Shown: in pieces, positions 9,617 to 31,019 of the stretch | Numbering within the stretch: position 1 is the first letter of the stretch | How the letters are laid out: each line of letters starts with the position of its first letter | NCBI GenBank assembly: GCA_024698325.1 | Contig: JAILRG010000076.1 | Coordinates: 62,001 to 126,000, forward strand | Source: Treponema sp. | GTDB taxonomy: Bacteria; Spirochaetota; Spirochaetia; Treponematales; Treponemataceae | Direction: 5' to 3' | DNA length: 64,000 nucleotides | Program-made: the position numbers and the translations under genes | Notes under the pieces: model-generated | What the model saw: the letters and a program-made list of their open reading frames with translations, nothing else | Told to the model about the DNA's origin: nothing | Databases searched by the model: none

Positions 9617-11239
9617 ATGAAAAACCTTGTTGTGCTTTTTGCAGGCGGCGACATGACGCACGCCTTTGAACCGATATTCGATGGAAAAACCGCTTTTGAC
9701 TGTGCATGTTTCTGGGCGCAGACAGTGTCCGAAAATGCTGGTGACAAAAATGCGGGTGTCTCCGTATTCACCGTTCCGGAATACAAGGAGCGGATAGAAG
9801 CTGCTTTCGGCGCCAAAAAAACTGATGTTGTCGTCAGGGAGCAGTGGACGAATGCTGCTGTTGCCCGGGAGATTTCCGCCGCATGTACACGCCACGATGC
9901 CAGGTGTGCAGTGTTCGCCTGGGCGGACTCCCCGTTCCTGAATGCTGCGCTGACAGAAGAGCTTATCCGCATTCAGACTGAATACAAGGCTGAGTACAGT
10001 TTTGCCGACGGCTTTGCGTACGGTCTTGCGCCGGAAGTCATTGACAGGGGATGCGCCGGAATTGTCGCGGCTCTTGGTGAAGACAGCCAGAAAACGGCGG
10101 GCGAAAAGCCTGCTTCCCGTGACGCGCTCTTTTCCATCATGAGCGGCGACATCAACAGCTTCGAGATAGAAACGCACATTGCGGACAAAGACTACCGCCT
10201 GCTGAGGTTTTCGTTTGAATGCGGAAGCAAGGCTTCTGCACTCGGCTGTAAGCGCCTGTACGAGAGCGCAAAAAAAGGAAAGCTCCTTTCAAAGATAACG
10301 GATGCACCTTCCTGCAATGTCTATACGCTTTCTGACCTTGCGGAAAAAGACGTTTCCGTGCTCAAGACGCTTCCCGCTTTCTATAACGTGCAGCTTTCAG
10401 GCTCCTACAGCCACGCGCTTGTATATGCGCCGATTCCAGCGCTTCCCTCAGCGCAGAATATGGACATCGGCGCATTTTCTGCGCTTGTCAAAGATATTGC
10501 GCAGACAAGTGAGCGCGCCGTCGTCTCGCTTTCGCTTTTCGGAGAGCCGCTTTTGCATCCGCAGTTCGCCGACGCCGTCTCTGAAGTGCTGCGCTATCCG
10601 GGGCTGACAGTCTTTGTGGAGACTGATGGCGTGCTTGTTACCGAAGAACTTGCTTCCCGCATTGCCGCTTCGTGTCCAGATGCCGAAAAGCGTGTTATCT
10701 GGTGCGTGCTTCTGGATGCGCAGACGGCGCCTGTATACGGGGCTGTGCACGGCATAGGAGATGGCGAAAAAGCTGCTGCTGACTTTGCGGCGGCGCAGGC
10801 GGCTGTCGCGGTTCTTGCCGCTCATTTTCCGCACGCAGTCTATCCGCAGTTTACCCGTATGAAGGTGAACGAGCCGGAGCTTGAGGCTTTCTACCGCTAC
10901 TGGAAAAAAGCTGACAGCCCGAGCCGCGGCGAGCTTATCATTCAGAAATATGACCGATTCTGCGGCCTGCTTCCCGATGCAAAAAGCGCCGACCTTTCGC
11001 CGCTTGAGCGCATGCCCTGCTGGCATCTGCGCCGCGATTTCTGCGTCTTAAGTGATGGAACGGTTCCGTTCTGCCGGAGCGCCGCCTGTGCGACGGGTTG
11101 CGCCTCTGCCGGAAATGTGTTACAAGAGGGCATTCAAACTGTATGGGAACGATTTAATACTCCGCTTGAAGCTCATATCAGCCAGTCCTATAACGAAGTG
11201 TGCAAGGTTTGCGATGAATACTATACCTTTAACTTTTAA
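9617..11239 (+). CDS. spiro-SPASM-like protein: NTP-transferase-like N-terminus, cysteine-less radical-SAM-like core, C-terminal SPASM domain
   Basis: LSLFGEPLLHPQF resembles the radical SAM GGEP motif; CWHLRRDFCVLSDGTVPFCRS...GNVLQEGIQTVWE...CKVCDEYY is SPASM-like; no CxxxCxxC. Confidence 0.75.
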   Translation: MKNLVVLFAGGDMTHAFEPIFDGKTAFDCACFWAQTVSENAGDKNAGVSVFTVPEYKERIEAAFGAKKTDVVVREQWTNAAVAREISAACTRHDARCAVFAWADSPFLNAALTEELIRIQTEYKAEYSFADGFAYGLAPEVIDRGCAGIVAALGEDSQKTAGEKPASRDALFSIMSGDINSFEIETHIADKDYRLLRFSFECGSKASALGCKRLYESAKKGKLLSKITDAPSCNVYTLSDLAEKDVSVLKTLPAFYNVQLSGSYSHALVYAPIPALPSAQNMDIGAFSALVKDIAQTSERAVVSLSLFGEPLLHPQFADAVSEVLRYPGLTVFVETDGVLVTEELASRIAASCPDAEKRVIWCVLLDAQTAPVYGAVHGIGDGEKAAADFAAAQAAVAVLAAHFPHAVYPQFTRMKVNEPELEAFYRYWKKADSPSRGELIIQKYDRFCGLLPDAKSADLSPLERMPCWHLRRDFCVLSDGTVPFCRSAACATGCASAGNVLQEGIQTVWERFNTPLEAHISQSYNEVCKVCDEYYTFNF

Positions 11240-12170
11240 TCAGCGGCAGATTAACCGCACGGTGCTGGGGGGAAAGGAAGCTGTGCCCCATACGCAGCTT
11301 CCGGTGTCTGTCATTCTGCTGAATCAGGGAGGCAGCCACTACCGCATTCAGAATCTGGAAAATCTGATTAAATGTGGTTTTGAATCAATCATCTCATTCG
11401 AAACGGATCCGGAAAACTATAATATCGAGGATTTTGCCCAGCGCTTTCCCTGCGTGCATTTTGTTGTTCCTCTGGAGCCAGTCACTGATGGAGACCTTAT
11501 CAACATCGGCATGGATGAAGTTAAGAGCGATTATGTGCTGGTTGTCCGCGATACGATTTCGATTACCGGTGATATCCTGACAGCCCGGCTGGTGTCGCGA
11601 ATCACGGAGCAGACGCCATACTGCATTTCTCCGCATCTGATGGTCTCAAACAGCCCGTCGTTTCCTAACATATTTGTGCCCGGCGTCAAGAGGAGCGAGC
11701 TTGACGTCATTCCGTCATCACATGTTGCGGATGGAACGCCTACGCTCTATCCGCTAGACTATATCGGTCTGTACAACCGGCAGAAGTTCATTCAGCTCGG
11801 CGGCTATGACTATACGATTCTGTCGCCGTACTGGCAGAACCTTGATTTGTCATTCCGCGCATGGCTCTGGGGCGAGAAGATTTCGCTTTCTACGATGTTT
11901 AACCTTTCGTATCTGGGGCTTCCGCCAGCAGAAGATACATCGGCGAACCTGTTTTCGGGACGCTTTTACTTAAAGAATCTGCTTCCGCATTTTGTGGATG
12001 ACCACGCCCTTATTCCGCGCCTGTCATTTTTTGCCTACTATCGCCGTTCCGGCTGTGGCTTTTTCGAATCGCTTAACCAGTTCGGAGATGCCCGCAGCTG
12101 GGTAGAAAAAAATAAATACCGCTTCCGTTTTGATGCGCCGCATCTGATAGAAAACTGGGGGAATCTATGA
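11214..12170 (+). CDS. Glycosyltransferase-like protein (family 2-like fold)
   Basis: ATG at 11214 (MNTIPLTFNQRQINRTVLGG) overlaps the upstream gene by 26 bp; SVILLNQGGSHYRIQNLENLIKCGFESIISFE and FIQLGGYDYTILSPYWQNLDLSFRAWLWG are GT-A-like. Confidence 0.6.
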   Translation: MNTIPLTFNQRQINRTVLGGKEAVPHTQLPVSVILLNQGGSHYRIQNLENLIKCGFESIISFETDPENYNIEDFAQRFPCVHFVVPLEPVTDGDLINIGMDEVKSDYVLVVRDTISITGDILTARLVSRITEQTPYCISPHLMVSNSPSFPNIFVPGVKRSELDVIPSSHVADGTPTLYPLDYIGLYNRQKFIQLGGYDYTILSPYWQNLDLSFRAWLWGEKISLSTMFNLSYLGLPPAEDTSANLFSGRFYLKNLLPHFVDDHALIPRLSFFAYYRRSGCGFFESLNQFGDARSWVEKNKYRFRFDAPHLIENWGNL

Positions 12171-14746
12171 GTGAATCTTGTGATACCGTTCTGATTGTGC
12201 AATGCCGTCTGTCATCAAGCAGACTTCCTGGTAAGGCGCTGCTTCCGCTGGGAAATAAAACCGTGCTTGACTGGACGCTTTCTGCGATGAAGAAAGTGCG
12301 TGCCGATGCCTATTATGTCGCTACCGACGCAGAATCTTACGACGCACTGCTACCTGTTGCCTCGCGGAACGGCTTTTCTGTATTTAAAGGCCCGCTCGAA
12401 GATGTGCTTGAACGTTTCTGCCAGCTCATAGAAAAGACCGGCGCAAAAACGGTTATCCGCGCAACTGCTGACAATCCGTTCCTGTTTTACGAGGCTGCGC
12501 AGGCGCTTGTGGATGAATACGAAAAACGCCGGGCTTCTAATCCTGTTGATTACATTACCTGGACGGGCTTACCGCATGGAAGCGGCGTCGAGGTGTTCAG
12601 CGCAGAATCTCTCTTAAAGGCCAAGCCTGAGACAAGCGATGCGTATGATCACGAGCATGTGGCGCCGGCGCTTTACAAGCACACCGACCGCTTTTCTGCG
12701 CTGTTCCTGCCGGCTCCCGAAGCGTGGAACCGCCCGGACTTGCGTACCACGATAGACACAAAGACTGATTACCGCCGCGCCTGTGCCATTGTGCGGGCTG
12801 TCTCGGCTTCTGTCAGTGCGGACGCTGCGGCCAATGCAGGCGGCGCAAGTGCGGAGCCGTTTACCTGTAAGCAGATTATTGCCGCCTGTGAAGACGCAAG
12901 CGTCTCTCATCCGGTTCTCTGCGTTCCGTGCGTCAAAAAGGGGCGGGGAACGGGCCACCTTCGCCGCTGCCTTTCCATTGCTGTTTCTGCTGGTGCTGAC
13001 GTGTATATTCCGGAAGACGCAGACCTGGATAAAAAGAACGAGCTGCTTGCCGCTTCCCGCCTAGAAGGCCTCTGCGACTGGCAGATTGTTACCGAGCTTC
13101 CGCAAAAAAATGACTACGCGCTCATCTTGACGGACGCGTTCTCGCTGAACCGCGATCTTGCATTAAAGCTTGCGTCTGTAGCGCCGCTTGCCGCCATTGA
13201 CGAAGGCTCGCTTAATACTGATGTCTGCGATTATCTGCTTGATATTATTCCGTCATATGGCATTACCCGCCCGGCAAATGTTGCAGACCCTTCATTTGTA
13301 ACGCTTCCGAAAAACCGTCGCAGCGCTCCGAAGATTACGGCTTTCGAGCAGATTAAGAACATACTTGTAACTGTCGGCGGCGAAGACCCTGCAGACCTTG
13401 TTGTTCCGGCAGCGACAGCCTTTGCCGGCGTCGGAAAGAACATTACTGCCATCATCCCGAGTGATAAAAGCATTGACGAATCCCTGCTTCGTGTGCCGGA
13501 GTCGGTGCGCGAAAAGGTGACGTTTATACCGCCGGTGCATAACCTGCGGGAAAAACTGTATGAATACGATGTGGTCGTAACTCATTACGGCTTTACCGCT
13601 TTTGAGGCTGTGGCTGCAGGTTGCGGCGTCGTGCTTTTGGGAACGACTGCGCTGCATGTGCAGCTTGCGCAGCGCTACGGCTTTGCCTGTATTCCTGCAA
13701 ATGATATCGGAGAAGCCTCTGCCCAGAATGCGCTGTACGATGTCGAGGCGTTGTATCCTGACAGCCCGTTTACCCGCGAGGGTGCCGGCAGGCGTGAATT
13801 GGGCGCCTTTGTGCAGCATCTTGCGCAGGGACGGCGCTTTTTCTGCCCGGTCTGCGGCGATACTGCCCAGAACAGTCCCGTGCCGGCTCATGTCGGTGAC
13901 GCTGTCGTCTCGCGCATTCCGTCGCGCACCTTCCGCCGCTGCTCGTCCTGCGGTATGCTCTACATGTCATGGACACAGGACGCAGATGCCAAGCGCTACG
14001 ATGAAGCCTATTTCTTTGAAAACTACAAGAAGCAGTACGGAAAGACCTATCTGGACGACTTTACTGCGATAAAGAGCCAGTGCGTGCGCCGCACCTCAGT
14101 GATTGACCAGCTGTATCGTTCCGCGCATAAAGCCGTTACGCCCACGGTGCTTGATGTAGGCTGCGCGTTCGGCCCGTATCTTGATGCGGCAAATGACGCA
14201 GGCTGGCAGGTGTTTGGCACCGATGTAAGCGAAGAAGCCGTGCAGTATGTGCAGAATACGCTGCATTATCCTGCCGTTATGGCCCGCTTTCCTGATTTAG
14301 ACCCTGCCGCGGAATACGGAGTCCGCCAGTTTGATGCGGTGACAATGTGGTACGTTATTGAGCATTTCCAGAATCTTGATGCAGTCCTCCGCGGAGTCGC
14401 ACGCATGGTAAAAAAAGGCGGCATTTTTGCATTTTCCACGCCCAGCGCAAGCGGCGTGTCTGCGCGGTTCAGTCCGCAGAAGTTTTTTGTGCAAAGTCCG
14501 GCAGATCACTTTACCTTGTGGGAGCCATCACGCGCCGCTTCGATTCTGCGCCGGTACGGCTTTAGGGTGGTAAAAATCGTCTATACCGGGCACCATCCGG
14601 AGCGGTTCCCCAAGCTTGCAAAATCAAAGGCAAAACCCTCAAGCTTCCGCTTCTCATTATTCAGCGCGCTCAGCCATTTCTTCGGACTGGGCGATACGTT
14701 CGAAGTGTATTGTAAAAAAGAAAAGGATATTTCATTCGATGACTGA
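12167..14746 (+). CDS. Fusion protein: SpsF/NeuA-like cytidylyltransferase + PseG-like domain + zinc-ribbon SAM-dependent methyltransferase
   Basis: VQCRLSSSRLPGKALLPLGNKTVLDWTL (SpsF-type); KKGRGTGHLRRCLSIA and TVGGEDPADLV (PseG-like); CPVCG..CSSCGMLYM then VLDVGCAFGPYLDAANDAGWQVFGTDVSEEAV (methyltransferase). Confidence 0.8.
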   Translation: MSESCDTVLIVQCRLSSSRLPGKALLPLGNKTVLDWTLSAMKKVRADAYYVATDAESYDALLPVASRNGFSVFKGPLEDVLERFCQLIEKTGAKTVIRATADNPFLFYEAAQALVDEYEKRRASNPVDYITWTGLPHGSGVEVFSAESLLKAKPETSDAYDHEHVAPALYKHTDRFSALFLPAPEAWNRPDLRTTIDTKTDYRRACAIVRAVSASVSADAAANAGGASAEPFTCKQIIAACEDASVSHPVLCVPCVKKGRGTGHLRRCLSIAVSAGADVYIPEDADLDKKNELLAASRLEGLCDWQIVTELPQKNDYALILTDAFSLNRDLALKLASVAPLAAIDEGSLNTDVCDYLLDIIPSYGITRPANVADPSFVTLPKNRRSAPKITAFEQIKNILVTVGGEDPADLVVPAATAFAGVGKNITAIIPSDKSIDESLLRVPESVREKVTFIPPVHNLREKLYEYDVVVTHYGFTAFEAVAAGCGVVLLGTTALHVQLAQRYGFACIPANDIGEASAQNALYDVEALYPDSPFTREGAGRRELGAFVQHLAQGRRFFCPVCGDTAQNSPVPAHVGDAVVSRIPSRTFRRCSSCGMLYMSWTQDADAKRYDEAYFFENYKKQYGKTYLDDFTAIKSQCVRRTSVIDQLYRSAHKAVTPTVLDVGCAFGPYLDAANDAGWQVFGTDVSEEAVQYVQNTLHYPAVMARFPDLDPAAEYGVRQFDAVTMWYVIEHFQNLDAVLRGVARMVKKGGIFAFSTPSASGVSARFSPQKFFVQSPADHFTLWEPSRAASILRRYGFRVVKIVYTGHHPERFPKLAKSKAKPSSFRFSLFSALSHFFGLGDTFEVYCKKEKDISFDD

Positions 14747-16412
14747 TACAAAACAAAGACAGATATTGATTTTGGGCGCGGGGCTTATGCAAAAGCCCTC
14801 GATTCTTGCGGCAAAGGAGCTTGGGTACAAGGCTGTTGTCGTGGATGCAAATCCGCATGCGCTCTGCGTGCCGCTTGCAGACCGCTTCGAGACAATTGAC
14901 TTGAAAGACCGTCCGGCGCTTGCAGCATTTGCAAAATCGCTCATGAAAGAAGAAGGCGGGCTTGTGGCAGTGTTTACTGCAGGAACTGATTTTTCAGCCT
15001 CCGTTTCGTATGTGGCAGAGCAGTGCGGCTTAAAGGCGCATGCTTTTGAAGCAGCCCTTAATGCAAGCGATAAGCTTCGTATGCGTGCGTGTTTTTCTGC
15101 GTACGGGGTTCCCAGCCCTGATTTTTCAGAAATGCAGAAAGCTGACATTGCATTCCTTGGTGCTGACGAGACATGTGATACGCAGCCGGGCGTGTTAAAA
15201 GTAGTAAAGCCCTGTGACAATATGGGCGGCCGTGGCTGCCGTCTGGTGCGTTCCCGGCAGGAATGGGTGCCGGCCCTCACAAATGCCGTCTCTTCATCCC
15301 GCACGGGCAGGGCAATCGTCGAAGATTACATGGCAGGCCCCGAGTTCAGCATTGATTCAGTTGTATACAACGGAACGCTTACCATAACAGGCTTTGCCGA
15401 CCGTCACATTTACTTTCCGCCGTATTTTATTGAAACAGGACACACCATGCCGACCTGCATCGACGAAAAAATGCGCCTTGAGCTGATTGCGGCTTTTGCC
15501 CTCGGCATTAAGGCTCTGGGGCTTTCCTGCGGCGTTGCCAAGGCTGACATCAAGTACACGGAAAATGGTCCCATGATTGGCGAGATTGCAGCCCGGCTTT
15601 CCGGCGGTTACATGAGCGGCTGGACGTACCCGTACGCAAGTGACGTTCCGCTTACAAAAACTGCCCTGCAGGTTGCGCTCGGCGAAGAGCCTTCCGAACT
15701 GGTGAAAAACCGCGTGCCGCTTCCCTGGGCGCCGCATCCTGCACAGGCTGGCAAGGAGCAGCCGTTCTTGCTGTATGAGCTTCCCTGTAAGCGCACGAGT
15801 GCAGAACGCGCATGGATTTCTATCCCCGGCGTTGTTTCCCGTATCTATGGCCTTAAGGAGGCTTCCGGCGTGCTAGGAGTGCGCGATGTGCTTCCCCGGG
15901 TACATGAAGGGGACGAGGTTCGCTTTCCGCGCAATAACGTAGAAAAATGCGGTAACATCATCGCCGTTGGTAGCACGAGGGCTGATGCCGTTGACTCAGC
16001 TCAGCTTGCAGTAAGTGGTATAACGCTCAGGCTTACTCCGCATAATGCGGGTACTGACGCATTCCTTGGCGGCCTGTGCGCTGAAGATGAATCAGGTTTT
16101 CCGCCCCAGGCATTTTCCGAAGCGTTTTCTCTCTACAGCACACACTGCTCCGATGCAGAAAAAGGAAAGACTATTCCAGCTTGTGTTCCGGTGGCGCCTC
16201 TTTTACCTCCCGCGCTTTCCTCACTCACCGAAAGCACTGACTGGAATCACCTTTCGCTCAAAAATGCTTTGGCGCGTTTTGACGAACTGTGCCCGAATCA
16301 CCCGGAACTAGATGCAAATCAGTTCTGGCTTGTTTTCCTGCGTGGCAGCGTGCAGGGCGCCTTGTATCTTGCAGATAGCGCATCTTCAGGTGCTGTTTCG
16401 GAGGAAGACTGA
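14739..16412 (+). CDS. ATP-grasp domain protein (PurK/CarB-like ligase)
   Basis: MTDTKQRQILILGAGLMQKPSILAAKELGYKAVVVDANPHA; VLKVVKPCDNMGGRGCRLV; GEIAARLSGGYMSGWTYPYA. Confidence 0.8.
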   Translation: MTDTKQRQILILGAGLMQKPSILAAKELGYKAVVVDANPHALCVPLADRFETIDLKDRPALAAFAKSLMKEEGGLVAVFTAGTDFSASVSYVAEQCGLKAHAFEAALNASDKLRMRACFSAYGVPSPDFSEMQKADIAFLGADETCDTQPGVLKVVKPCDNMGGRGCRLVRSRQEWVPALTNAVSSSRTGRAIVEDYMAGPEFSIDSVVYNGTLTITGFADRHIYFPPYFIETGHTMPTCIDEKMRLELIAAFALGIKALGLSCGVAKADIKYTENGPMIGEIAARLSGGYMSGWTYPYASDVPLTKTALQVALGEEPSELVKNRVPLPWAPHPAQAGKEQPFLLYELPCKRTSAERAWISIPGVVSRIYGLKEASGVLGVRDVLPRVHEGDEVRFPRNNVEKCGNIIAVGSTRADAVDSAQLAVSGITLRLTPHNAGTDAFLGGLCAEDESGFPPQAFSEAFSLYSTHCSDAEKGKTIPACVPVAPLLPPALSSLTESTDWNHLSLKNALARFDELCPNHPELDANQFWLVFLRGSVQGALYLADSASSGAVSEED

Positions 16413-17443
16413 TGAAACGCTTTTACGCTGTGCTTTTACTGCTGCTTGCTGTTTGTATGCAGTCCTTCTGTGCAGAATCTTCCCTTAACCTGCTCGAAGC
16501 GGCCGAAAAGGCTGGCGCACAGGTTTTCTGGGATTCGCTTTCCGGCACCGGTATGCTCGAAAAAAACGGTCATCAGATTTCTTTCCGTGCCGGAGATAGC
16601 TTTGTGCTGCACGACTACAAACTTCTTGCGCTCTGCGATGCACCTGAGCTGAAAGACGGAACGCTGTATGTCTCCCAGCAGTTCATGAAAGATGCCGAGT
16701 CGTTTTTTAATACGCGTACTGACGAAAGTTCGTACAAAATCGGTGCAATCCTGATTGACCCCGGTCATGGCGGAAAAGACCCCGGTGCTATGGACACTCA
16801 TACGATAAAAGGGAAAAAAGTAACCGTTAAGGAAAAGGATGTGAACCTTGCCGTGGGAAAAATGCTCTATGCACGGCTTAAGACCGCCTATCCGGATAAG
16901 CAGATTCTCATGACCCGCAGTACTGATGTGTTTATTTCCCTTGCCCAGCGCACGGAAATAGCAAACAGTGTCAAACTGAAAGACGACGAAGCGATTCTGT
17001 ACATTTCCATTCACGTTAATGCCTCGCTTGACAAAAAAGCAAACGGCTACGAAGTCTGGTATCTGTCTCCCGGGTACCGGCGGACAGTCCTTGATAAACG
17101 GGCTTCTGACGACAAAACGCTGTTTAACATCATGAACTCAATGATGGAAGAGGAGTACACTACCGAAAGCATTTTAATTGCGAAGTTCGTTATGGACGGC
17201 ATGCAGGCGCAGGTTGGCTCGCTTGCTTCTCCGCGCGGCATAAAAGCAGAGGAGTGGTTTGTTGTCCGCAATTCAAATATGCCGGCTGTCCTTGTCGAGC
17301 TGGGATTCCTGACAAACGAAAAAGAGGCAGCTTTGCTCGCAGATAACTCCTACTTGCAAAAGGCAGCTTTCGGTATATATAATGGCCTGGCCGCATTTGT
17401 AACGCATTTTGAGCGATCCCGCGGTTTTACTGGAACGAAATGA
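16412..17443 (+). CDS. N-acetylmuramoyl-L-alanine amidase (Amidase_3)
   Basis: ILIDPGHGGKDPGAM, LMTRSTDVFISLAQRTEIAN, SIHVNAS and VLVELGFLTNEKEAALL; signal peptide. Confidence 0.93.
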   Translation: MKRFYAVLLLLLAVCMQSFCAESSLNLLEAAEKAGAQVFWDSLSGTGMLEKNGHQISFRAGDSFVLHDYKLLALCDAPELKDGTLYVSQQFMKDAESFFNTRTDESSYKIGAILIDPGHGGKDPGAMDTHTIKGKKVTVKEKDVNLAVGKMLYARLKTAYPDKQILMTRSTDVFISLAQRTEIANSVKLKDDEAILYISIHVNASLDKKANGYEVWYLSPGYRRTVLDKRASDDKTLFNIMNSMMEEEYTTESILIAKFVMDGMQAQVGSLASPRGIKAEEWFVVRNSNMPAVLVELGFLTNEKEAALLADNSYLQKAAFGIYNGLAAFVTHFERSRGFTGTK

Positions 17444-17886
17444 CCCTGATGAAAAGCAAAATACGCCTGTTTTTGATAATTGCTGCGGTAGCTCTGGCTA
17501 TCTCTTTTATTTTTTACATTCCCGGAACCTCGGCAAAGCGCCGGATTTTTACGTTTCCGGAGATTGGTACAGAAAAAACTGTTGTAGAAGTCCGCTATCT
17601 TCGCACTCCTGAAGGTATGGATGAAGTGACGGCTTTTGTTAATGAACTGCTGCTTGGCCCGCAGACATCCCGGGTACGGCCGCTGTTTACCCGGGGAACG
17701 AACTGTTCTTTCTGTTTTGTCCGCGATAAGACGCTCTATGTAGACCTTTCAGCAAATGCCCTGCTTGAGGCTTCAGATTCCGCGTCGATTCTGGAAGGCA
17801 TCCGTTATTTTAAGCAGAATATTAAAAAGAATTTTCCGTCTGTCCGGGAGATTCAGCTCTATATCGGCGGTCGTCCTGTTGAATAA
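17440..17886 (+). CDS. GerMN domain-containing protein
   Basis: N-terminal TM; FVNELLLGPQTS...LYVDLSANAL motif; 4-bp overlap with the amidase gene. Confidence 0.75.
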   Translation: MTLMKSKIRLFLIIAAVALAISFIFYIPGTSAKRRIFTFPEIGTEKTVVEVRYLRTPEGMDEVTAFVNELLLGPQTSRVRPLFTRGTNCSFCFVRDKTLYVDLSANALLEASDSASILEGIRYFKQNIKKNFPSVREIQLYIGGRPVE

Positions 17887-17924
17887 GTCTTAAAAAAATG
17901 CGGAAAAAATCCGTATAAAAAGCG

Positions 17925-17953
17925 TTGACAAAAAAGCAGTCTTGTTAGATACT
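17925..17953 (+). promoter_or_regulatory. Sigma-70-like promoter for flaA (TTGACA - 17 bp - GATACT)
   Basis: Consensus -35 at 17925-17930 and -10-like GATACT at 17948-17953, upstream of an AGGAG RBS. Confidence 0.65.
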
Positions 17954-18001: not shown

Positions 18002-19096
18002 ATGAAGAAAACTTTAGCGTTATCTGTTGCAGCTGCAATGCTTCTTGGAACATCTGCTTTTGCTACAGAATCAGTACTCATCGATTTCACTATGCTGGAC
18101 GGCGATATTACTATCAAAGCACAGGATAGTGATGTGGAAATTCCCCAGAACAGACGTACTGTGATGGATTACGGTATCAATGCTGGTGCAACTTTCAACC
18201 AGGATCAGAAAGATCTTATGAAGACATCTCTGTACCTTGGCGAATGGGAGATTGTACTCAACAGTTCTGCCCGTAATGTAACAAGCCTCGCAGAATCTGT
18301 CGTTGTTCCGGCACCTGTCCGCGAAAGCTCTAAGCAGCCGTTTGCTGGCAAGAACGTCATGGGCGTTCATGTGATTTTCCCGCATGGCGCATACAATGCA
18401 AATGCAAAAGTTGTTCCGCCGTTTGATATTCCGGCTTACGAGCCGCTCTCAACAGCAGATGACAACGGCGACCGTCAGCAGCCGACTGATGAAGAAAAGG
18501 CTTCTGGTCGCATGCTGTTCGAAGCTGACGACGATACAACACCGGCTTATGGTCTGGTAAAGAACGTTGGTACACTTAAGTCAATCAAAGTAACTACAAT
18601 GGGTATGAATTATCCTCACGGACTCTATGTTCTCCTGAAGGACAATGACAACGTTGAGCGCCGCTACTTCATGGGTTACCTTGGTTTTGACGGTTGGAAA
18701 CAGCTGATTTGGAACAACCCTGATTACATTTCTGAAGTTCGCACACGCGAAATCCGTGTATACCCGATTTATCCGCGTGGTCTTCCGTTCGTGAAGTTCT
18801 GCGGCTTCCAGATTACACGTGATGCTATGCACGCTGGTGATGATTTCATCGGTTACTTCAAAGATGTTGCAATCATCTACGACAAAGCAGAGCTCACAAC
18901 AGAGCGCGACATTGCTGATGAAGACCTTTGGGGTATCGTAACTCGTCGTGAAGCTGCTCGCCAGACATTCGAAATGTCTCGCTTCGGTGGCAAACAGGTT
19001 AACCGCTACCTCGAAAAGGCTAAGATGGCAACTGAAGAACAGTTCACATCAAGCCTGGCAGATGGTTCTGAAGGTCACGCAACAGGCAATCAATAA
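18002..19096 (+). CDS. flaA: Flagellar filament outer-layer (sheath) protein FlaA
   Basis: Signal peptide MKKTLALSVAAAMLLGTSAFA; spirochaetal FlaA-like sequence (LGVKxx-style GMNYPHGLYVLLKDNDNVERRYFMGYLGFDGWKQLIWNNPDY). Confidence 0.9.
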   Translation: MKKTLALSVAAAMLLGTSAFATESVLIDFTMLDGDITIKAQDSDVEIPQNRRTVMDYGINAGATFNQDQKDLMKTSLYLGEWEIVLNSSARNVTSLAESVVVPAPVRESSKQPFAGKNVMGVHVIFPHGAYNANAKVVPPFDIPAYEPLSTADDNGDRQQPTDEEKASGRMLFEADDDTTPAYGLVKNVGTLKSIKVTTMGMNYPHGLYVLLKDNDNVERRYFMGYLGFDGWKQLIWNNPDYISEVRTREIRVYPIYPRGLPFVKFCGFQITRDAMHAGDDFIGYFKDVAIIYDKAELTTERDIADEDLWGIVTRREAARQTFEMSRFGGKQVNRYLEKAKMATEEQFTSSLADGSEGHATGNQ

Positions 19097-19125
19097 TAGC
19101 TTTGCTACTAGCTTGAATTGAAAAA

Positions 19126-19160
19126 AAAAGGTCATTCCTTAAAGGGATGGCCTTTTTTGT
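19126..19160 (+). terminator. Rho-independent terminator of flaA
   Basis: AAAAGGTCATTCC-TTAAA-GGGATGGCCTTTTTT hairpin and T-tract. Confidence 0.85.
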
Positions 19161-27758: not shown

Positions 27759-30700
27759 CTATTTAATCATTGCGTGGTAAGCCTGCAGAGATTTTACTCC
27801 GCCTTCTCCACCGTTACCGTCCTTTACGCTTGCAATGCCCTGGACGGCTGCTAATGCGCCGGCGAGCGTCGTGATGTAAGGAACCTTGTATTTAAGGCAG
27901 GCCTTGCGGATGGTTTTGCGGTCTTCAGCGTAATTGCGCTTCGCTTTCGGCGTGTTAATCACAAGGCTTACTTCCTTGTTCATGATTGTGTCAATGACGT
28001 CAGGACGGCCGCCGCCGATTTTGTTTACGACTGCGCATTTAATGCCGTTCGTATTGTAGAAATCAGCGGTTCCCTGTGTGGCTACGAGCGTGAAGCCCAG
28101 GTCAGAAAGCGTCTTTCCGATGGTAAGCACTTCATCTTTCTGTCCCTCTTTGTTGGAGAGGCTGATGAGTACCTTTTTGTTTTCCCATGCTGCCGGTGCG
28201 TGGGGCAGTTCTGAGCCGGCCGCTTCTTGTGCCTTGTAGAAGGCAAGCGGGAAGTTTTCTGCTATGCCCAGAACTTCGCCGGTTGAGCGCATTTCCGGGC
28301 CTAAGATGGGGTCGACGCCAGGGAAACGTGCCCACGGAAGTACTGCTTCTTTTGCGCCGTGGTACGGAATAACCTTGTCCTTCAGGGAAAGGTTTTCGAG
28401 TGATTCTCCGAGCATGAGCCGGGTTGCAAGGCGTGCCATCTGAGTGTCACAGACTTTTGATACGAGCGGCACGGTGCGGCTTGCGCGCGGATTTGCTTCG
28501 ATTACATACACTTTGCCATTTTCGATGGCGTACTGCATGTTCATAAGACCGCATACATGGAGTGACTCCGCAATCTTGCGCGTGTAGTCTTTGATTGTCG
28601 CAAGGTTGTCCTTAGGAATAGATACCGGCGGGATAACACAGGCAGAGTCACCTGAGTGAATGCCTGCAAGCTCGACGTGCTCCATAACGGCCGGAATGTA
28701 CACGTGCGTGCCGTCTGCAAGCGCGTCAGCCTCGCATTCAAGCGCATTCTTCAAAAAGCGGTCGATAAGAAGCGGGCGGTCGGGGGTTACACCGACTGCT
28801 TTTTCAACATATTCTTTGAGCGTCTTCTCGTCGTAGATGACTTCCATGCCGCGGCCGCCAAGAACGAATGACGGGCGAATCATAATCGGGTAGCCAATCT
28901 TGTCTGCAATGGCCTTTGCTTCGTCAAAGTCGATTGCCATGCCGCTTTCGGGCATCGGAATATTGAGGTTGTCCATCATCTTGCGGAAGAGGTCGCGGTC
29001 CTCGGCGATGTCGATGCTGTCGATTGAAGTGCCGAGAATGTTCACGCCGTTTTCCTGCAGCTCGCGTGCAATGTTAAGCGGTGTCTGGCCGCCGAACTGC
29101 ACGATAACGCCCATCGGCTTTTCTTTTTCGTAAATCTGCAGTACGTCTTCCGTGGTGACCGGCTCGAAGTACAGTTTGTCTGAGGTGTCGTAGTCGGTAG
29201 AAACGGTTTCGGGGTTGCAGTTTACGATGATGGTTTCGTAGCCCATCTCTTTAAGCTGCATGGCTGCGTGGCAGCAGCAGTAGTCGAACTCGATGCCCTG
29301 ACCGATTCTGTTCGGGCCGCCGCCTAAAATCATAATCTTCTTTTTGTTGTCGGTAGCTTTTGACGTGTCCTTGCTGTTGTAGGTCGAGTAGTAGTAATTT
29401 GCATTTTTTACGCCGCTGACCGGAACGGCAAGCCATGCTTCTGTAATGCCGAGTTCTCTGCGGCGTGCGCGGATGTCTTTTTCTGCGACTTTGAGGATTT
29501 TTGAAAGATACTTGTCGCTAAAGCCGTCTTTCTTTGCCTGAATAAGCAGGTTGTCTTCGGGAACGCGGCCGGGATTTTTGAGCATTTCTTCCTCAAGATC
29601 GACAAGCTCTTTCATCTGCTCAAGGAAGTACTGCTTTACATAGGTGATTTCGTGCAGTTTATCGAGAGGTACGCCCTTGCGGATTGCCTCATACAGCTGG
29701 AAGTAGCGTTCGCTTGATGCTGTTTTGAGCATTTCGCACAGCTCTTCCGCGCTCTTTTTGTTGAAGTCCTTTGCAAAGCCAAGGCCAGCGCGTCCGTTTT
29801 CTAGCCCGCGGATTGCCTTCTGGAACGTCTCCTTAAAGGTTTTGCCGATTGCCATAACTTCGCCGACCGCTTTCATGCTGGTGCCTAAGGAATCTTCGGC
29901 TCCGCGGAATTTCTCGAATGCCCAGCGTGCAAATTTCAGTACGACATAGTCGCCGTCAGGAGCGCCGCCCGGAGTGTATTTGTCGAGCGTGCCGTCGCGC
30001 CAGTACGGAATTTCGTCGAGCGTAAGACCGCTTGCAAGCTTTGCGGAAATAAGCGCAATCGGAAAGCCGGTAGCTTTTGACGCAAGGGCAGAAGAGCGGC
30101 TGGTACGCGGGTTGATTTCGATGATGACTACACGGCCGGTCTTCGGGTTGTGCGCAAACTGTACGTTCGTGCCGCCGATGACGCCGATTGATTCTACAAT
30201 CTTGAAAGCCATGTTCTTGAGTTTTTCCTCAAGCGCCTTGTCGATGGTCATGAAAGGGGCAGAGCAGAAACTGTCGCCGGTGTGAACGCCGACAGCATCA
30301 ATGTTTTCAATAAAGCAGATTGCAACCATCTGATTTTTTGCATCGCGTACGACTTCTACTTCAAGCTCTTCCCATCCGAGAATGCTTTCTTCAATAAGAC
30401 ACTGGTGTGTCATGGAAAGGTCAAGGCCGTTTGCAACGATGGTGCGCAGTTCTTCTACGTTGTAACAGAAGCCGCCGCCCTGGCCGCCCATGGTGTATGC
30501 GGGGCGTACGACGACCGGATAGCCGATTTCTGCGGCGATTTTTTCAGCTCCTTCTACAGTGTGGCAGATGTCGCTTCGCGGGGTGTCGATGCCCAGAGAC
30601 TGCATGGTCTCCTTGAAGATTTCACGGTCTTCGCCCCGTTCGATTGCGTCAAGATTTACGCCGATGACTTTTACACCGTATTTGTCGAGAACGCCGGCTT

Positions 30701-31019
30701 TGTTCAGCTCGCAGGCAAGGTTTAAGCCTGTCTGACCGCCCAGGTTCGGAAGCAGCGCATCCGGACGCTCTTTTTCAATAATCTGTGCAAGACGCTCTAC
30801 GTTCAGCGGCTCAATGTAAGTTGCATCCGCCATAACCGGGTCGGTCATAATGGTTGCGGGGTTTGAGTTTACCAGAACGATTTTGTAGCCCTGCTCGCGC
30901 AGTGCTTTACAAGCCTGTGTACCTGAATAGTCAAACTCGCATGCCTGTCCGATTACAATTGGACCCGAACCGATAATCAATACCTTGTTGATGTCATCGC
31001 GTTTCATTTTATTTTTCAC
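27759..31019 (-). CDS. carB: Carbamoyl-phosphate synthase large subunit
   Basis: IGSGPIVIGQACEFDYSGTQACKALREQGY, tandem ATP-grasp halves, RMGGGPNRIGQGIEFDYCC-type second half. Confidence 0.98.
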   Translation of the reverse strand: MKNKMKRDDINKVLIIGSGPIVIGQACEFDYSGTQACKALREQGYKIVLVNSNPATIMTDPVMADATYIEPLNVERLAQIIEKERPDALLPNLGGQTGLNLACELNKAGVLDKYGVKVIGVNLDAIERGEDREIFKETMQSLGIDTPRSDICHTVEGAEKIAAEIGYPVVVRPAYTMGGQGGGFCYNVEELRTIVANGLDLSMTHQCLIEESILGWEELEVEVVRDAKNQMVAICFIENIDAVGVHTGDSFCSAPFMTIDKALEEKLKNMAFKIVESIGVIGGTNVQFAHNPKTGRVVIIEINPRTSRSSALASKATGFPIALISAKLASGLTLDEIPYWRDGTLDKYTPGGAPDGDYVVLKFARWAFEKFRGAEDSLGTSMKAVGEVMAIGKTFKETFQKAIRGLENGRAGLGFAKDFNKKSAEELCEMLKTASSERYFQLYEAIRKGVPLDKLHEITYVKQYFLEQMKELVDLEEEMLKNPGRVPEDNLLIQAKKDGFSDKYLSKILKVAEKDIRARRRELGITEAWLAVPVSGVKNANYYYSTYNSKDTSKATDNKKKIMILGGGPNRIGQGIEFDYCCCHAAMQLKEMGYETIIVNCNPETVSTDYDTSDKLYFEPVTTEDVLQIYEKEKPMGVIVQFGGQTPLNIARELQENGVNILGTSIDSIDIAEDRDLFRKMMDNLNIPMPESGMAIDFDEAKAIADKIGYPIMIRPSFVLGGRGMEVIYDEKTLKEYVEKAVGVTPDRPLLIDRFLKNALECEADALADGTHVYIPAVMEHVELAGIHSGDSACVIPPVSIPKDNLATIKDYTRKIAESLHVCGLMNMQYAIENGKVYVIEANPRASRTVPLVSKVCDTQMARLATRLMLGESLENLSLKDKVIPYHGAKEAVLPWARFPGVDPILGPEMRSTGEVLGIAENFPLAFYKAQEAAGSELPHAPAAWENKKVLISLSNKEGQKDEVLTIGKTLSDLGFTLVATQGTADFYNTNGIKCAVVNKIGGGRPDVIDTIMNKEVSLVINTPKAKRNYAEDRKTIRKACLKYKVPYITTLAGALAAVQGIASVKDGNGGEGGVKSLQAYHAMIK

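Follow-up and report, generated by a model that had tools for sequence, protein, structure and literature searches.

The window, the whole 64,000-nt stretch of Treponema sp. DNA analysed here, contains six plus-strand ORFs that overlap consecutively by 26, 4, 8, 1 and 4 nt and are followed on the same strand by flaA. The first ORF (P0001; 9617..11239) encodes a spiro-SPASM protein, matching TIGR04321 at E = 1.1e-146 and 489.5 bits against a curated cut-off of 250. It shares 26 nt (11214..11239) with the ORF of a GT-A-fold glycosyltransferase-like protein (P0002, hereafter GT; 11214..12170), which has no Pfam or NCBIfam match and whose fold comes from a structural model (pLDDT 91.3). Next come an SpsF-PseG-methyltransferase (MT) three-domain fusion (12167..14746; PF02348 1.6e-30, TIGR03590 1.1e-5, PF13489 8.5e-21), an ATP-grasp ligase with an LAL_C2 domain (P0004; 14739..16412; PF18603 2.5e-15, PF13535 3.7e-11), a secreted N-acetylmuramoyl-L-alanine amidase of the Amidase_3 type (16412..17443; PF01520 7.7e-46) with intact zinc ligands (motifs DPGHGG, EKD, HVNA and ELGF) and a membrane-anchored GerMN domain protein (17440..17886; PF10646 9.2e-9). 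The gene for the flagellar filament outer-layer (sheath) protein, flaA, occupies 18002..19096 (PF04620 4.4e-72); it is preceded by a predicted sigma-70-type promoter and followed by a putative intrinsic terminator (19124..19158; a 16-pair stem, then a T run), both on the plus strand. The coordinates and overlaps given in the original prediction were reproduced exactly. Its domain calls were mostly right; the ORF called GT-like has no family match, and the PseG-like match falls under the cut-off. The DNA belongs to a Treponema of the T. socranskii/bryantii genus group and not to T. denticola.

In the fusion protein, an SpsF-type CMP-sugar cytidylyltransferase (~1-205) is joined to a PseG/SpsG-like UDP-sugar hydrolase (~250-545) and to a zinc ribbon with a SAM methyltransferase (~555-859). 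The SpsF domain belongs to CTP_transf_3 (PF02348) and retains its nucleotide-binding motif, QCRLSSSRLPGK; the methyltransferase is of the Methyltransf_23 family (PF13489). The PseG-like domain scores only 25 bits against TIGR03590 (cut-off 153); the motif GTGHLRR (GxGHxxR) is present in the window protein and in 60 of the SpsF/PseG proteins scanned.

We took ~20 kb around the spiro-SPASM gene from many genomes and searched these loci with profiles of the seven proteins. TIGR04321 matches were found in 188 of 198 Spirochaetota genomes. In about 41 of the 48 class Spirochaetia loci with a spiro-SPASM gene, the window included, the order on one strand is spiro-SPASM, GT, SpsF, PseG/MT, ATP-grasp, amidase, GerMN and flaA, and this array spans 29 families (the totals of 48 loci and 29 family codes are hand counts from tables). 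In 42 of the 45 loci having both genes, the GT gene starts exactly 26 nt before the spiro-SPASM gene ends; the shared DNA codes for ...YYTFNF-stop in one frame and for MNTIP... in the other. Recurrence of the order and of the overlap at such frequencies indicates that the arrangement is not due to chance. The linkage with flaA, on whose conservation the original prediction depended, was found class-wide, well outside the source strain.

Exceptions to the array are L038 and L039 (T. denticola-like), L040 (T. pallidum-like), two f53 loci, one f63 locus and one short contig; exceptions to the 26-nt overlap are L046, L047 and L217. The labels T. denticola-like, T. pallidum-like, Borrelia and Brachyspira-like were assigned from the size of each genome and its gene layout. 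Among the 41 array loci, no amidase was found in L048 and no GT in L219. In L038, L039 and L040 the array is split, with amidase, GerMN and flaA still together. The ATP-grasp gene, considered at one point to have been lost from these T. denticola-like and T. pallidum-like genomes, is in fact kept there at another position. The T. denticola-like genomes have spiro-SPASM-GT-SpsF/PseG/MT, an ATP-grasp homologue and NeuB, and the gene layout of L084, one of their loci, is that published around TDE1712. Fusion of SpsF with PseG-MT is confined to Treponemataceae loci; SpsF is a separate gene outside this family, except in f13, where SpsF and PseG are fused without MT. In other classes the core is often spiro-SPASM-SpsF-PseG without flaA, and sometimes spiro-SPASM occurs alone, as in Brachyspira-like f17, again without flaA.

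The promoter sequence claimed for flaA, TTGACA-17-GATACT, was confirmed at 17925..17953 as a predicted promoter with equivalents upstream of flaA in other loci. In 29 of 40 loci the site was matched by <5% of shuffles, and in very many cases it reads as a perfect TTGACA-16-TATAAT; the flaA genes of the T. denticola-like and T. pallidum-like loci have TTGACA-16-TATACT (a near-perfect sigma-70 site at about 10006-10101 of L084), and no such site was found upstream of flaA in the Borrelia loci. In T. denticola, a start site lies upstream of TDE1716 and flaA is co-transcribed with four upstream ORFs (PMC9481697); given that start, the flaA-proximal site would be an additional, predicted promoter. 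Since flaA appears to have a conserved and strong promoter of its own, the description of the six genes as ‘feeding into flaA’ holds for gene order more than for strict co-expression.

The spiro-SPASM protein consists of an N-terminal cytidylyltransferase-like domain, a radical-SAM-like barrel without the CxxxCxxC motif and a C-terminal SPASM domain. PDB matches to its model (pLDDT 90.8) include the Leptospira cytidylyltransferase 6oew and the radical SAM enzymes BtrN and DesII; the latter two, among the best structural matches, share the barrel fold but P0001 differs from them in lacking CxxxCxxC and in having the N-terminal domain. The motif is present in 33 of 68 spiro-SPASM proteins and absent from the window protein and from all 12 Treponemataceae loci. 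On the tree its distribution takes eight changes, at least five of them on well supported branches. Such counts alone do not separate gain from loss; repeated loss is likelier, the motif being a defining feature of this family of folds. With the motif absent, the Treponema protein is probably not a radical SAM enzyme and, judged from its sequence, is probably a non-catalytic partner. The term ‘spiro-SPASM’ was absent from the literature searched, in which we also found no described role for the SpsF-PseG-MT fusion or its ATP-grasp partner.

A NeuB-type synthase is encoded elsewhere in the window's genome (G000:C82:2637-3356, 3.2e-55). NeuB was found in 189 of the 198 genomes of the phylum sample, and both NeuB and spiro-SPASM are missing in 7 of 7 Borrelia-like genomes. 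Three Borrelia-like genomes carry a shortened array, GT-amidase-GerMN-flaA, from which the three sugar-related genes are missing; the ATP-grasp gene was absent in both of the Borrelia-like genomes searched genome-wide. Flagellin_N is missing in 50 of 248 genomes of the class, and we examined 20 of the 50 for module genes. Spiro-SPASM was found in none of these 20 vs 32 of 34 flagellin-bearing non-Borrelia genomes (the two without it are 81% complete), and NeuB in 1 of 20 vs 31 of 32. G239 accounts for the single flagellin-less NeuB match, which is a strong one (1.4e-58). The GT-amidase pair, the most persistent of the array, remains in flagellin-less genomes.

Three f8/g15 genomes (G149, G226 and G242) keep FlhA and are missing both flagellin and the sugar genes, both of which are present in f8/g147; thus the sugar genes track flagellin and not the export genes. 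The corresponding f8/g15 loci (L108, L230 and L231) retain GerMN along with GT-amidase. FHIPEP matches without flagellin were seen also in G205 and G255 of f55. On the GT tree the absence of flagellin needs one change only; a tree that keeps f8 together had the higher likelihood and was not rejected by the AU test (p 0.8), and would imply a second flagellin loss, and f55 may represent a third. There may have been just two to three independent losses, with the co-occurrence partly reflecting one history; with so few, the 20 genomes do not count as independent observations, and any significance value calculated from the comparison would mislead. As to whether the sugar genes track flagellin everywhere, Borrelia retains flagellin without them.

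Evidence from the acceptor protein bears on the Borrelia case. VEVSQL and DRIAS are glycosite motifs of T. denticola FlaB, and in B. burgdorferi the serines at these motifs are substituted (PMC7431986). The acceptor serine is present at the two sites in 31/33 and 28/33 non-Borrelia spirochaete flagellins, taken from lineages where the sugar genes are general (with a partial genome-by-genome check, and usually one flagellin copy per genome), and in 0/9 and 0/9 Borrelia flagellins, which have Glu and Asp there instead. This extends the published observation to more genomes and ties the loss of serines to the loss of the sugar genes, as one evolutionary contrast. Two flagellin copies that have neither acceptor serine (L249 in G138 and L268 in G222) come from genomes that carry several flagellins.

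On this evidence we consider it likely that the array comprises two interleaved modules. Module 1 (spiro-SPASM, SpsF-PseG-MT and ATP-grasp, together with NeuB elsewhere) would make and tailor a CMP-activated nonulosonate (NulO) of the pseudaminic/legionaminic type that is O-linked to FlaB. Module 2 (GT, amidase, GerMN and FlaA) would be an envelope or periplasmic set, whose GT-amidase core would be independent of flagellin. We checked this division against flagellin co-occurrence, joint loss with NeuB, loss of acceptor sites in Borrelia, synteny and integrity of the SpsF/PseG motifs. The part of the original prediction that proposed a nonulosonate-type flagellar glycan system agrees with the tracking of flagellin by spiro-SPASM and NeuB and with the missing FlaB serines where module 1 is missing. 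Its view of all these genes as a single glycan/peptide system, and of the amidase as a link from the glycan to peptidoglycan, conflicts with the persistence of GT, amidase, GerMN and FlaA in Borrelia without the sugar genes and of GT-amidase without flagellin.

FlaA had been named as a glycan target as well. T. denticola FlaB proteins bear a glycan of 450.2 Da without which filaments do not assemble, as stated in PMC9481697; a 1998 study cited in PMC13144727 says in its title that flagellins are glycosylated and sheath proteins are not. FlaA therefore probably lies beside glycosylated FlaB as its partner in the sheath and is not itself the glycoprotein. Cryo-EM work on L. biflexa proposes that FlaB glycans mediate the contact between sheath and core (PMC13144727).

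Genes of the SpsF, NeuB and PseG types often work in the synthesis of surface polysaccharides, the NeuB gene is not next to the array and some genomes have extra copies of it; all this would suit a cluster that makes a surface or outer-membrane glycan (capsule or lipid-linked polysaccharide) unrelated to flagella, with incidental linkage to flaA. We regard this as unlikely, since module 1 is lost together with flagellin, is retained in a reduced T. pallidum-like genome of 1.14 Mb (G056) and is missing in Borrelia along with the FlaB acceptor serines.

The model of P0002 has as its top PDB match the polypeptide GalNAc-transferase ppGalNAc-T (5nqa_B; E 5.5e-12, TMq 0.64, prob 1.0); by sequence there was no match to PDB below E 0.26. 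Where the DxH metal site of GT27 enzymes is expected, P0002 has RDT (placed by eye). Its GT27-like fold, and the tight overlaps that include the conserved 26 nt shared with spiro-SPASM, would fit all seven genes forming one flagellar glycosylation operon in which P0002 is the peptide O-glycosyltransferase putting NulO on FlaB or FlaA. The distribution of P0002 makes this improbable: homologues persist in 4 of 4 Borrelia genomes without NeuB or spiro-SPASM and in 15 of 20 flagellin-less genomes, and a strong homologue was found in 0 of 17 genomes tested of other classes, though module 1 is present there. On the same grounds P0002 was judged unlikely as the flagellin NulO transferase, and no other gene was identified in that role. 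The FlaA branch of this explanation also meets the 1998 title cited above.

ATP-grasp ligases of the LAL type form amide or peptide bonds and GT-amidase is the most persistent pair, as a cell-wall or envelope maintenance operon (GT, amidase, an ATP-grasp peptide cross-link and GerMN, with the sugar genes modifying peptidoglycan or lipoproteins) would have it; this is very improbable, given that Borrelia lost the ATP-grasp gene with the sugar genes and kept GT and amidase, and that in f18 (L112) the ATP-grasp gene lies a few genes from PseG-MT, though an M23 peptidase is also near. In three genomes of other spirochaete classes that we looked at, the ATP-grasp/LAL_C2 homologue is fused to FMN_dh, a domain of alpha-hydroxyacid dehydrogenase fold (L109:8605-10971, L116:9940-12288 and L110:8170-10341), and is 39-44% identical in the ATP-grasp part. 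Co-loss (with the ATP-grasp search of the flagellin-less set covering G149), synteny and this fusion suggest, at the level of sequence, that the ligase may be the enzyme forming the N-acyl (amide) bond in the sugar pathway. A second ‘ATP-grasp’ match in the window, at 27759-31019 on the minus strand, is carB, for carbamoyl-phosphate synthase.

Within the two-module reading, the PseG-like domain would remove UDP from a 2,4-diamino-sugar, NeuB would condense the product with PEP and the SpsF domain would make the CMP-sugar. The ATP-grasp ligase may add an acyl group by an amide bond, and the methyltransferase may methylate either the sugar or the added acyl group. Spiro-SPASM would be a partner protein, with catalytic activity limited to lineages whose copies still have the radical-SAM cysteines. 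We infer the order of steps, the acyl and methyl chemistry of the ATP-grasp and methyltransferase proteins and the identity of the transferase. A 2017 study of the T. denticola glycan reportedly described a NulO of pseudaminic configuration whose N-acyl group is methoxy-trihydroxyhexanoyl; an amide ligase and a methyltransferase would suit such a hydroxy-acid, methoxy-bearing glycan.

Campylobacter and Helicobacter O-glycosylate flagellin with pseudaminic acid made by PseBCHGIF. PseG-like, CMP-transferase and NeuB/PseI-type steps are common to that pathway and to module 1; however, its genes are separate, whereas in the Treponema array SpsF, PseG and MT are fused and accompanied by spiro-SPASM and ATP-grasp. 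In B. subtilis, according to PMC7439481, legionaminic acid synthesis requires SpsE and SpsG, and transfer of the product requires SpsF. The types of cytidylyltransferase (SpsF), hydrolase (SpsG/PseG) and synthase (SpsE/NeuB) are shared with the present system, but the target is the spore crust, and the pathway as given there includes neither a spiro-SPASM gene nor a fused methyltransferase nor an ATP-grasp gene. Closest is the FlaB NulO system of T. denticola (Kurniyati 2017, cited in PMC9481697 and PMC7431986), as described there a Treponema flagellin O-glycan of 450.2 Da needed for filament assembly; the difference is that the array is split in T. denticola-like genomes and intact in the window. 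The present system would thus be of a known kind, flagellin nonulosonate glycosylation, in a new form, a conserved NulO module interleaved with an envelope/FlaA module.

The two-module reading offers a testable function for families nearly universal in flagellated spirochaetes; it would explain why Borrelia lacks the modification, and it names the residues lost alongside. More tentatively, spirochaetes may have their own flagellin-glycan line. In it, a near-universal cytidylyltransferase-like and radical SAM/SPASM protein would have turned more than once into a scaffold without the cluster, and a dedicated ATP-grasp ligase (in other classes fused to an FMN alpha-hydroxyacid dehydrogenase-type domain) would attach a hydroxy-acid N-acyl group to NulO. 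The genes would have stayed beside flaA in most lineages of class Spirochaetia because it is the glycan that docks the FlaB core to the FlaA sheath. The conservation of sugar genes beside the sheath gene, together with the proposed FlaB-glycan contact (PMC13144727), makes this docking model directly testable.

No NulO gene cluster was found around NeuB in the loci looked at, where it is an orphan gene. In a T. pallidum-like genome (G056:C1:611206) and a T. denticola-like genome (G165:C1:982633), NeuB is followed by one and the same pair of genes (fam6 and fam7).
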